Of a stretch of 6,124 bases of DNA, positions 2,608-6,124 are shown piece after piece. The position numbers and the translations under genes are program-made. Under the pieces are notes generated by a model that saw only the letters and a program-made list of their open reading frames with translations, was not told where the DNA came from and ran no database searches. The stretch's first letter is position 1; every line of letters starts with the position of its first letter. The DNA is taken from assembly GCA_937925645.1 (NCBI GenBank), contig CALAMB010000375.1:1-6124 (forward strand), written 5' to 3'. Source of the DNA: an uncultured Acidobacteriota bacterium (GTDB lineage: Bacteria; Acidobacteriota; JAAYUB01).

Positions 2608-4155
2608 GTGGACGTGATCCTGGCGGGCCTGAACGTGGATGCGGAGATCCTCCGCGAGTACCGGGAACTCCTGGAGCGGGCCCGGCCGGCGCTGGCGGAC
2701 GGTGCCGACGCCGACCGGGAGGTCCTGGCGGCGGAGCTGACCGCGCTCGCCGAACGCCGCAACCTGACGCCAGAGACGCTCTCGGCCGCCTACGCCCGCA
2801 TCAGCCGCGACCCGCGTCCGGCGCCGGAGCTCCGCGCCGCGGCCCGGGCGGAAGTGGACCGGGCCCGAAAATCCAACGAGTCGATCATCTTCGGCCTGGG
2901 CCATGCCTCGGTGGCCGAGCACGCCGTGTTCAACCTGGACGTGCTGGGCGTCAGCCGCCTGGCCGCCGAGTTCGTGGAGCGCTTCCGCCTCTGCTCCTAC
3001 ACCGAAAAATCGCAACGCTACATCACGCTCGAGGGGGATTACGTCACGCCGGTGGAGGTGATGGGCACGCCGCTGGAGGCGGAGTTTCACGCGCTGGTCG
3101 CCCGCCAGGTGGCGTTCTACCGCCGCTGTTACGGCAAGCTGGCTGAGTATTTTCCCGCCCGGCACCCGGAGTTGGCTGAGGGGAGGGACGGCCGGCGCAC
3201 CCTCGACGGCTGGGCCAGGGAGGACGCCCGCTACGGCCTGAGTCTGGCCACGGAGACCCAGCTCGGCCTAACCGCCAACGCCCGCAACCTGGAGCGGATC
3301 ATTCAGGCGGCGGCCGCCCATCCGCTGGGCGAGGTGCGGGAGTACGGCGACCGCCTCCGCCGCGCCGTGGGCGGCATCGCCCCGTCGCTCATCAAGTACA
3401 CTGAGCCGGCGGCGCACCACCGCCTGGACCTGCCGCTGACCCGGGAGCGCCTGCGCGCCGCCGCCGGCACAGCGACGCCGGAGCCAGCCGGCACGGCGGC
3501 CGCCTGCCGCGTCGTGGATGACGCGGGCCTGGACGAGACGCCGGTCTGGACGGCGCTGATGCACGAGGCGGGCGGGCTGTCGGCGGCGGCGAGCCGGCGC
3601 TGGGCCGAAACGGCGGGCGACGAGGAGAAGCGCACCCTGCTGGCGGGACTCGTGGAACACCTGCCGCCGTGGCAATCGCTGCCGCGCGCCTTCGAGCTGG
3701 CCGCGGCCACGTTCGAGTGCGTGGTGAGCGCCTCGTGCTTCGCCCAGCTCAAGCGCCACCGGATGGGCACGCTCATCCCGCAGGATTACGACCCGCGGCT
3801 CGGCGTCACCGTGCCGGCGTCGGTGGCGGCGGTGGGGGAGGGCGCGGCGTTACGGGAACTGGCGGACGCGAGCGCCGCGGTGGCCGCGCGGATCGGCGCC
3901 CTGGCGCCGCCGGCGGCCGCCTACGCCCTGACCAACGCGCACCGGCGCCGGGTGCTGTTCCGGGTCAGCGTGCGCGAGCTGGCGCACTTCGCGCGGCTGC
4001 GCCTCGACGCCCACGCCCAGTGGGACATCCGCGAGATGGCCGGGGCGATGACAGCGGCGGTCCGGCCGCGCTTGCCGCTGTTCGGCCCGCTGCTCTGCGC
4101 CAAGAACGACCTGGCCGCCGCCTGCCGCCGCCTGGCCGACCCCGGCGGGGAATGA
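2608..4155 (+). CDS. thyX: Tandem (double-length) ThyX-like flavin-dependent thymidylate synthase family protein
   Basis: ThyX makes dTMP from dUMP using FAD, NADPH and methylene-tetrahydrofolate; the usual protein is about 220-250 residues and forms a homotetramer. This 515-residue protein holds two ThyX-like halves. The first (about residues 80-265) has GHASVAEH (98-105), GVSR and RFRLCSYTEKSQRY (125-138), which follows the RHRxxSxNExSxRY signature except for His to Phe and Asn to Thr. It then has NARNLERII (224-232) and ends near APSLIKYTEP. The second half (about 355-500) has an intact RHR (383-385) but loses the rest of that signature. It keeps the C-terminal dUMP-side block RELAHFARLR plus AHAQWDIREMA (456-478). 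The halves are thus complementary, which suggests one composite active site per chain (inference). The start is GTG with AGGAGG 10 bases upstream. It probably shares a transcript with ispH. Family assignment is firm; thymidylate synthase activity is less sure. Confidence 0.85.
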   Translation: MDVILAGLNVDAEILREYRELLERARPALADGADADREVLAAELTALAERRNLTPETLSAAYARISRDPRPAPELRAAARAEVDRARKSNESIIFGLGHASVAEHAVFNLDVLGVSRLAAEFVERFRLCSYTEKSQRYITLEGDYVTPVEVMGTPLEAEFHALVARQVAFYRRCYGKLAEYFPARHPELAEGRDGRRTLDGWAREDARYGLSLATETQLGLTANARNLERIIQAAAAHPLGEVREYGDRLRRAVGGIAPSLIKYTEPAAHHRLDLPLTRERLRAAAGTATPEPAGTAAACRVVDDAGLDETPVWTALMHEAGGLSAAASRRWAETAGDEEKRTLLAGLVEHLPPWQSLPRAFELAAATFECVVSASCFAQLKRHRMGTLIPQDYDPRLGVTVPASVAAVGEGAALRELADASAAVAARIGALAPPAAAYALTNAHRRRVLFRVSVRELAHFARLRLDAHAQWDIREMAGAMTAAVRPRLPLFGPLLCAKNDLAAACRRLADPGGE

Positions 4156-4488: not shown

Positions 4489-4568
4489 AATTTTAAGACA
4501 AATTGTTCAATGCCTCCGTCATGGCTGTATCCACCAATGAGTAAATTTTTGAGTGAGATCACCCGATT
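4489..4568. other. AT-rich spacer with no recognised feature
   Basis: This stretch is clearly more AT-rich than the coding regions, with AAATTTTAAG and AAATTTTTGAG runs. I see no credible gene, RNA or strong hairpin in it. It separates the heptamer words from the left inverted repeat of the mobile unit. Confidence 0.5.
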
Positions 4569-4607
4569 GGCACAGATGAGGTACCGCGAGCGGCAGCGAG
4601 CGGCGCG
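4569..4607 (+). repeat. Left inverted repeat (REP-like)
   Basis: The 30-base core 4578-4607 begins GAGGTACCGCGAGC and ends GCGAGCGGCGCG. It equals the reverse complement of 5361-5390 except at one base (G here, A in the other copy). A further outer block GGCAC (4569-4573) also matches, separated by four mismatched bases. The core contains a tandem decamer, GCGAGCGGCA then GCGAGCGGCG, and a GGTACC palindrome. Confidence 0.85.
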
Positions 4608-4714
4608 ATGCGACCCTGGCTACGATCCACCGGTTGATGAAGTAATTCCATCAGGACCAACGTCTCTCGCTCGGAACATTTTTTAAATCAAACGTTATAT
4701 AGATTGAATCCACT

Positions 4715-4719
4715 GGAGG
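4715..4719 (+). promoter_or_regulatory. Ribosome-binding site of the Y1 transposase gene
   Basis: GGAGG stands 9 bases before the GTG at 4729. An in-frame TGA at 4705-4707 excludes any start further upstream. A TATATA at 4696-4701 could be a -10 box, but the matching -35 region (GGAACA) is poor, so no promoter is claimed. Confidence 0.75.
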
Positions 4720-4728
4720 TTTTCCTCG

Positions 4729-5265
4729 GTGAAAACGCATGGCCTGCAATCATGCTTTCTGACCTTTCGCACTCGTGGCACCTGGCTCCATGGCGATCCA
4801 CGAGGCTCTCAGGACCGCTTCCGCAACGAATACGGCACGCCTCGCATCAGCCATACCCCTGCCTGGCAGGAAGAAGAAGCTTGCCGACTGGGCCATCCGC
4901 CCGTCACCCTTGATGCCGCCATGCGCCGGATTGTGCATGACGCCATAGTGGATAAATGCGCTTGACGAGGCTGGCCGCTTCATGCACTGCGCATCCGCAC
5001 CGAGCATGTTCACGCCGTACTGTCGTGCTCGATATCGCCGGACGACGCGCTGAACCAGCTCAAGTCATGGTGTACCCGAAAACTGCGGGAAGCCGGATTC
5101 ATCCCAGCCGATCTGAAACCATGGTCGCGCCATGGGTCCACAGTGCATCTGTACCGTCAGAGTCAGTTTGACGCCGCGCGCCGGTACGTCCGGGATAAAC
5201 AGGGTGGGGATCTGGATAATTGGGCGGATATCGAAGCGCGCTACGGCGACGAGCAGGATCGATAA
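4729..5265 (+). pseudogene. Y1 (HUH) transposase of the IS200/RAYT type, interrupted by one in-frame TGA
   Basis: From GTG 4729 the frame reads a protein start typical of RAYT-like transposases: CFLTFRTRGTWLHGDPRGSQ, then PRISH and PPVTLDAAMRRIVHDAIV. It stops at TGA 4963-4965 after 78 codons. Beyond the stop the same frame continues to TAA 5263 and gives RGWPLHALRIRTEHVHAVLS, KPWSRHGSTVHLY and RRYVRDKQGG. The HUH histidines are codons 5005 and 5011, and the probable catalytic Tyr is codon 5185. These enzymes cut and rejoin single-stranded DNA at hairpins. The frame is unchanged across the stop, so a nonsense change such as CGA to TGA (Arg) is the simplest explanation, not an indel. The upstream operon genes here all end in TGA, so TGA is a real stop. 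The truncated 78-residue product would lack all catalytic residues. Full length would be about 178 residues. Confidence 0.87.
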
Positions 5266-5334
5266 CGTTTCCGAGCGTTCATCGCCACTCGTCTTTGTGT
5301 GGTCTGGATACATTGACGGAGTGGAATCGCATCC

Positions 5335-5359
5335 GGGGTGACGCGTGGAGCACGCCCCC
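5335..5359 (+). other. GC-rich hairpin just inside the right inverted repeat
   Basis: GGGG, a TGAC bulge, GCGTG, loop GAG, then CACGC and CCCC form a 9-bp stem with a four-base bulge. It ends one base before the right inverted repeat. Y1 transposases recognise bulged or imperfect subterminal hairpins, so this is a candidate recognition structure. I could not find an equivalent just inside the left arm, so the role is speculative. Confidence 0.45.
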
Positions 5360-5360
5360 T

Positions 5361-5399
5361 CGCGCCGCTCGCTGCTGCTCGCGGTACCTCCCGCGTGCC
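5361..5399 (-). repeat. Right inverted repeat (REP-like)
   Basis: This is the reverse-oriented partner of 4569-4607. The core 5361-5390 runs from CGCGCCGCTCGCTG to GCTCGCGGTACCTC. It differs from the left copy at one base of 30, and the outer GTGCC at 5395-5399 matches the left GGCAC. The near identity shows that the pair is either young or kept by selection or conversion. Confidence 0.85.
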
Positions 5400-5424
5400 G
5401 GCCGTTTGTGAGTGCCAGACGAGA

Positions 5425-5549
5425 TCGGTGAATGGGTGAATCGGTGAATGGGTGAGTCGGTGAATGGGTGAATCGGTGAATGGGTGAATCGGTGAATGGG
5501 TGAGTCGGTGAATGGGTGAGTCGGTGAATGGGTGAATCGGTGAATGGGT
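5425..5549 (+). repeat. 16-bp tandem repeat, about 7.8 copies
   Basis: The unit TCGGTGAATGGGTGAR is repeated seven times in full and once partly (13 bases). The only variation is the last base, which runs A, G, A, A, G, G, A. Each unit is itself two related 8-base words, TCGGTGAA and TGGGTGAR, so the array began as an 8-bp repeat. There are no spacers of unique sequence, so it is not a CRISPR. The array has no stop in one plus frame, but no start and ribosome site support translation. It begins 25 bases outside the right inverted repeat. Confidence 0.95.
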
Positions 5550-5652: not shown

Positions 5653-5682
5653 AAAAAAAAGGCGGGGCCAGAAGGCCCCGCC
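5653..5682 (-). terminator. Rho-independent terminator of the TonB-dependent receptor gene
   Basis: On the minus strand a 9-bp perfect stem (GGCGGGGCC / GGCCCCGCC, 4-base loop TTCT) is followed by eight T residues. It begins 28 bases after the receptor's stop codon. This is a strong canonical terminator. The plus strand has no T tract after the stem. Confidence 0.93.
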
Positions 5683-5710
5683 TGGAGTGGTCACGCGGAC
5701 CAGCCGGTTC

Positions 5711-6124
5711 TTAGAACTCGAACCGGATGGAGAACCGCATGTTGAACGGACGCTGGAACGCCTGGGGCGTCAGGTAGTCGGGGTTCTCGTATTCGGGAGC
5801 GAGTTCGAAGTCCTCGTCCACGTTGGTGATGCGCTTGAAGTTGCAGAGGTTGAACACGTCCACGCCGAAGCGCAGGCGGTAGTTGTCACCGAAGGTGAAC
5901 GGATAGCTCATGTGCACGTCGAAGTTGTTCAGCCACTCGGTCCGGCCCTCGGCTCCGCGCGGGGTCATCGGGATCTCGCCGGAGTTCTCATACGCCGGGT
6001 GGGCACCCAGCTTGGTGATGGGGGCGCCGCTGGTGCTCCGGAAGCCCACGCCCAGGGTGAAGCCGCCGGTGAAGGTGTAGGAGCCGTTGAAGTTCAGGGT
6101 GTGGCGCCGGTCGGTGTTCAGGTA
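5711..6124 (-). CDS. TonB-dependent outer-membrane receptor (Oar-like), C-terminal 137 residues
   Basis: The frame is open to the right edge of the window, so the signal peptide, plug and most of the barrel lie outside. The visible part begins YLNTDRRHTLNFNGSYTF and continues with alternating beta strands: GFTLGVGFRSTSGAPI, EWLNNFDVHMSYPF and YRLRFGVDVFNLCN. It ends in FNMRFSIRFEF. A terminal aromatic residue in an alternating hydrophobic last strand is the standard signal for insertion by the BAM complex. The DRRH, SGxPI, LGAHPAYENSGE, PRGAEGRT and VDVFNLxN pattern is that of the large carboxypeptidase-regulatory-like TonB receptors (Oar type) that are numerous in Acidobacteriota. The substrate cannot be told from the barrel end. 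The stop is TAA, followed by a strong terminator. Confidence 0.88.
   Translation of the reverse strand, partial: YLNTDRRHTLNFNGSYTFTGGFTLGVGFRSTSGAPITKLGAHPAYENSGEIPMTPRGAEGRTEWLNNFDVHMSYPFTFGDNYRLRFGVDVFNLCNFKRITNVDEDFELAPEYENPDYLTPQAFQRPFNMRFSIRFEF

Follow-up and report, generated by a model that had tools for sequence, protein, structure and literature searches.

The question raised by this locus is whether a Y1 transposase-like gene framed by long inverted arms, found in the window (the whole stretch of 6,124 nucleotides analysed, from an uncultured Acidobacteriota bacterium), belongs to a REP-RAYT system, as the original prediction proposed, or is an ordinary insertion sequence. The arms, at positions 4569–4608 and 5360–5399, are 88% complementary over 40 nt, lie 751 nt apart and make up the longest inverted pair reported for the window. 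The predicted pairing, a 30-base core identical at 29 positions with a single differing base together with an outer match of five bases (GGCAC at 4569–4573 with GTGCC at 5395–5399), proved to be exact, and the best ungapped inverted match between the two 300-bp flanks of the gene scored 28, compared with a maximum of 13 in 60 dinucleotide-preserving shuffles of these flanks. When the arms were read against their relatives a refined structure appeared, each window arm being an outer block plus a REP-like hairpin, with inner motifs in common as well (Table 1). The locus lies in an ordinary-looking chromosome, its neighbours being ispH, a ThyX-like gene and a tRNA-Glu. The ThyX-like protein (2608–4155, 515 residues) contains two stretches that match Thy1 (PF02511) and may be a two-domain form, and at 5661–5683 the sequence GGCGGGGCC-AGAA-GGCCCCGCC, beside an A run, resembles a terminator for the minus-strand gene that ends at 5711.

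Table 1. Features of the transposase-like locus in the window, with strand and basis of each assignment.
Feature	Position	Strand	Basis
Left-end outer block	4552..4579	+	67-arm consensus, conserved from about 28 bases outside GGTACC; end approximate
Left REP-like core, GGTA plus predicted hairpin CCGC-GA-GC-GGCA-GC-GA-GCGG	4580..4603	+	29 sites in genome G001; fold
Left-end inner motif ATTCCATC, also in small units	4645..4652	+	Reading of arm alignment
Y1/HUH transposase-like frame, interrupted	4729..5265	+	Profile match, alignment of relatives
In-frame TGA, codon 79	4963..4965	+	Frame reading, alignment of relatives
HUH codons; tyrosine; glutamine	5005..5013; 5185..5187; 5200..5202	+	P0001 numbering
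Right-end inner motif (GACGGAGTGG...GGGGTGA on + strand), also in small units	5315..5341	-	Reading of arm alignment
Right REP-like core, loop AGCA	5365..5388	-	Arm alignment and fold
Right-end outer block	5389..5416	-	Arm consensus; retained at gene-less site of G002 and G003

The gene in the window matches the Y1_Tnp profile (PF01797) with an E-value of 0.0012 and a bit score of 19.3, which falls short of the gathering threshold of 23. Among 80 candidates 63 protein relatives were found, the best of which, P0001, occurs in 27 contigs and is 90% identical over its whole length. His93, His95, Tyr153 and Gln158 are invariant in 20 aligned sequences, the window included, and the motifs read EHVH and YVRDKQ in the window (YVRDEQ in the closest relative locus, L001). 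An AlphaFold2 model of P0001 (pLDDT 85.7, pTM 0.81) matches IS200/IS605 transposases and also the structure of a REP transposase in complex with its hairpin (4er8; E-value 1.1e-4, TM-scores 0.47 and 0.50). The window gene is a Y1/HUH relative, interrupted by a stop. Four relatives scanned against NCBIfam stay far below the cut-offs of both the REP_Tyr_transpos family, where the best scores 23 of 80 bits and P0001 is not listed, and the IS200 family, where P0001 scores 22.6 of 55 bits.

The stop, a TGA at codon 79 that had been overlooked in the original prediction, precedes both the HUH motif and the tyrosine, so the product of the window copy would end ahead of its catalytic residues and the copy is likely inactive. 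The equivalent codon gives Trp in P0001–P0003 and Tyr in P0004. Recoding of TGA was considered and rejected on three grounds: ispH and the ThyX-like gene of the window terminate with TGA, the relatives carry Trp or another residue at codon 79, and stops within the matched range of the relatives' genes (7 of 35 loci) fall at scattered positions. Comparison of the window gene with that of L001 over 177 codons, codon 79 left out, gave dN 0.047, dS 0.374 and dN/dS 0.126; selection kept the protein during most of this divergence and the stop is therefore likely recent.

L001, a locus in an Acidobacteriota MAG (genome G001), shares 91% identity with the window along 4.4 kb to the left of the gene, which it has in uninterrupted form at the same site and between the same inverted arms. 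At L001 neither the right outer block nor the ATTCACC array described below is present beside the gene, other sequence following directly after the core from position 5662 onward. The 24-base arm core appeared at 29 sites in G001 with at most three mismatches (14 forward, 15 reverse; none for a reversed-pattern control). Twenty of these sit in ten inverted pairs, namely the pair around the gene and nine small ones of 204–255 bp, leaving nine singles. With at most two mismatches 26, 17 and 20 sites were found in G001 and its relatives G002 and G003, and again none for the controls, while the other three of the six genomes of the class searched gave 0, 0 and 0. In one copy (L058, 1732–1755) the core is extended by a tandem repeat of the 10-base unit GCGGCAGCGA. 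The prediction that the arm core recurs is therefore borne out, often with inverted pairs, in the relatives, where it was counted, and from these sequences we infer recurrence in the window's own genome as well. The gene itself is present in one copy in G001, the only one of four genomes of the family (MAGs, completeness not stated) in which it was found; this agrees with the single-copy gene that had been proposed and is unlike an ordinary multi-copy insertion sequence.

A hairpin of the form CCGC-GA-GC-loop-GC-GA-GCGG (or its CC/GG form), directly after GGTA, was predicted for all four cores tested. Its fold energies are unremarkable (z-scores of -0.7 to -1.6). In a set of 67 arms, where arms identical across the compared stretch were counted once, 63 have G-A at one mismatched stem position and 63 have A-G at the other, figures biased upward by the arm-collecting pattern, which contained GA/GA and both stem variants and allowed at most five substitutions. 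One inner stem pair is G-C in 56 arms, C-G in eight and unpaired in three, and the C-G subfamily is, as far as the predicted hairpin goes, a compensatory change. RNAalifold, run on 65 of these arms (all but a shifted tandem copy and a decayed arm), found the GA/GA-loop hairpin only, with a covariation term of +0.14, which is not a bonus; the same program detected no hairpin in either the outer block or the inner one. Directly before the stem the foot is GGTA in 51 of the 67 arms and GGTG in nine, AGGT occupies -5 to -2 in 60, and in 17 arms CnGA lies four bases further out.

Facing cores define 21 units in G001–G003 with lengths of 193–277 bp, 14 of them of 243–250 bp. These include orthologues between genomes, many units being common to sister genomes at orthologous places, and represent fewer than 21 independent insertions. 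According to the arm alignment three parts make up each end of a unit, namely an outer block (about 28 bases), the core and the inner motif, and the gene-bearing unit carries the same three parts at both of its ends; because core, outer block and inner motifs are common to both unit types, the small units probably arose from the gene-bearing one by deletion. An intergenic location of the copies holds for 12 of the units, which have all six frames closed and lie outside any single gene, but not demonstrably for the remaining nine, where an open frame runs across the unit and a location within a gene is possible. For one doublet the single strand gave a strong fold (z-score -4.4).

Arrays of ATTCACC[G/C] adjoin repeat ends in the window (5425–5549) and in G001–G003. 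Such an array is found within 160 bp outside 13 of 68 arms, with the same orientation to the core in all of them and none reversed, and the arrays beside arms may mark a strand-specific target. They also occur elsewhere, with 110, 127 and 123 overlapping matches in G001, G002 and G003, respectively.

Empty sites, which the original prediction suggested comparing in relatives, could be found both for the gene and for small units. At the site orthologous to the window locus G002 and G003 hold no gene and instead a short joined sequence, in which the left outer block followed by GGTACCGC (GAAGTACCGC in G003) directly joins TTGCCGGCC of the right outer block. As CCGCG is common to the two ends of the unit that holds the gene, a deletion between these short stretches of identity would explain the site in a simple way; it may also be the original state, with insertion into it elsewhere. 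In a ThyX tree, in which the row of G004 is a partial gene, G001 groups with G003 (support 0.93), and on these sequences the grouping is at odds with the gene having been lost once, in an ancestor shared by G002 and G003. Six small units were probed in the same manner (L110, L114, L118, L119, L051 and L113). The doublet L110 of G002 is clearly missing at the orthologous site in both G001 and G003, whereas the borders are less clear in other cases: L114 is absent from G003, where other sequence lies between the flanks, the contig of G001 ending too early at this site to tell, and L118 is likewise absent from G001, again with other sequence between the flanks. For L119 G001 and G002 show the right flank only, and for L051 no orthologous flank was found. 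The ends of the insertions are approximate because simple repeats fill the spacers. The idea that the outer blocks were a repeated target already present before insertion was not supported, one partial place being found in the three genomes by a pattern that would miss degraded copies and does not match the gene-less sites themselves.

To see how far the hairpin design extends, the 450-bp flanks of 35 related genes (of 50 loci, L036–L050 with weak or partial matches being left out) were scanned for a stem, a 2x2 internal loop of any sequence, two base pairs and a four-base loop. This revealed 185 such hairpins on both strands, among them 25 with GA/GA and 28 with its reverse complement TC/TC, the next types reaching nine; 20 shuffles keeping single-base composition gave a mean of 0.2 GA/GA hairpins. 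The GA/GA form occurs at ten of the 35 loci, L001 and nine of the 34 others, in Acidobacteriota and Planctomycetota, and at eight of the ten it is found on both sides of the gene in inverted order. Hairpin patterns recur in nine of ten genomes searched that contain such genes: in all six from Planctomycetota (12, 27, 12, 6, 345 and 10 sites; one control match in G007 and none in the rest) and in three of four from Acidobacteriota (47, 0, 19 and 108 sites; no control matches), G014 giving no match to the Acidobacteriota pattern. The same ten genomes have one to seven profile matches each to the protein, some of them fragments. In the Planctomycetota genome G011 the patterns CCGCGACCGTGAGGGAGCGG and CCGCGAGCGTGAGCGAGCGG are both listed and display the same stem swap as in the genus of the window. 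Its locus L004 combines 345 exact hairpin-pattern matches in the genome with one transposase profile match, and immediately ahead of the gene four hairpin copies form a tandem array with a period of 87 bp (C40:5233–5513).

The repeats of class-3-like genes (class 3 TnpA-Y1, see below) could be a REP superfamily of their own, next to GTAG and CGTC, with structure and not sequence as the defining trait. In this proposal a tandem G-A/G-A internal loop interrupts the stem at a distance of two base pairs from a four-base loop whose last base is A; compensatory changes have maintained the design in both Acidobacteriota and Planctomycetota, and the internal loop serves as the recognition mark of the enzyme, a counterpart of the AA-GC bulge in E. 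coli REPs. We regard the odds of this joint proposal as even. The hairpin rule can be used for finding such repeats in other phyla.

Taken together, the locus is best read as a class-3-like Y1/HUH gene, interrupted by a stop, between two inverted REP-like sequences of a kind dispersed through three related genomes, where the intact enzyme would have moved the small doublets in trans, a reading to which we give a probability of roughly 0.78. By analogy with E. coli TnpA-REP the intact enzyme would recognise the REP hairpin on single-stranded DNA. REPs of E. coli contain an AA-GC stem mismatch, a change to a regular stem severely affects activity, and cutting needs the mismatch (text of PMC8266576); since the mismatch is needed there, the GA/GA internal loop is the putative element recognised here. 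The conserved tyrosine would then cut, using the HUH metal site, and the enzyme would move the small doublets in trans. Among G001–G003 no movement was caught, and many of the units sit at orthologous places in sister genomes.

An ordinary IS200/IS605-like element with short non-autonomous copies, whose single gene is the last survivor and not domesticated, would explain why the small units resemble deletion derivatives of the gene unit and why up to seven profile matches occur in other genomes with such genes, and class 3 is itself said to resemble both insertion sequences and REPtrons (text of PMC6006769). This is nevertheless improbable given the one copy in G001, located at the site of the window, the dN/dS of 0.126 between window and L001, and relatives that stay under the IS200 cut-off (P0001). 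More improbable still is an origin of the hairpins as structural or transcript-end elements that recombination or slippage has spread, with the gene lying between two of them by chance. The many units at orthologous places in sister genomes, the doublet with a strong single-stranded fold and the abundance of simple repeats fit such an origin, whereas the same hairpin design at 10 of 35 related loci, far above the shuffles (25 hairpins against a mean of 0.2), and the three parts per end common to gene-bearing and small units argue against it.

With a REP-RAYT-like system as the preferred reading, one and the same site offers three states of the gene: L001 has it uninterrupted, the window has it broken by a stop, and G002 and G003 lack it. 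The REP family persists in G001–G003 despite the differing state of the gene, which makes the dependence of the doublets on the enzyme testable, and class 3, whose behaviour was unknown in 2018 (PMC6006769), gains a case with an intact, a broken and an absent gene.

When comparing the locus with known systems, the Y1/HUH fold of the model and the subterminal hairpins are shared with IS200/IS605, from which it differs by a gene that is single-copy and syntenic and by a score under the IS200 family cut-off. Several copies or differing sites, by which IS200/IS605 elements are told, were not seen in the one gene-bearing relative genome, and an ordinary multi-copy insertion sequence was set aside on the single copy in G001 and its synteny with the window. 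Features in common with the TIRYTs or TIRtrons (Di Nocera et al. 2013, PMC3733652) are long inverted repeats that enclose a tyrosine transposase, repeat families of moderate abundance and a group in Acidobacteria. Of 26 TIRYTs, 20 are placed in subclass 2.1, the rest in 2.2 and 2.5 and none in class 3 (text of PMC6006769), unlike the window gene, which is nearest class 3. The single gene, the inverted REPs around it and the scattered doublets are as in the RAYT/TnpA-REP systems, where a stem mismatch, here GA/GA, is described for group 2 REPs; the doublets measure 193–277 bp, whereas in GI REPINs the invariant 16-mers are 71 bp apart (texts of PMC3116915 and PMC8266576). The REP-RAYT reading first proposed thus holds for core recurrence, inverted pairs and a single gene in the relatives, but not for a canonical RAYT (class 2), as there is no GT[AG]G foot and Y----Q stands in place of Y---NP. 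No account of the repeat family was found in the texts of PMC6006769, PMC3733652, PMC3116915 and PMC8266576.

The closest counterpart is class 3 TnpA-Y1 as set out in the text of Quentin et al. (2018, PMC6006769), characterised by a Y----Q motif, with Acidobacteria and Planctomycetes among its hosts, and regarded there as possible intermediates between insertion sequences and REP transposases. Y----Q (Tyr153, Gln158), HVH, a similar length and the host phyla are shared, and genes flanked by "atypical secondary structures" repeated in the genome have their parallel in the predicted hairpins and their recurrence in G001–G003. Compared with the class 3 motifs NHVH and YV[VI][AENY]EQ, the window has E for N before HVH and R for V/I in the tyrosine motif; the core residues are retained, with differences beside them. 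A GA/GA internal loop is not described in that text, figures and supplements aside, and the class 3 foot is CnGA, unlike the GGTA of the window's genus. Judged by its DNA, the system functions like REP-RAYT and comes closest to class 3 TnpA-Y1, from which its foot sequence differs.
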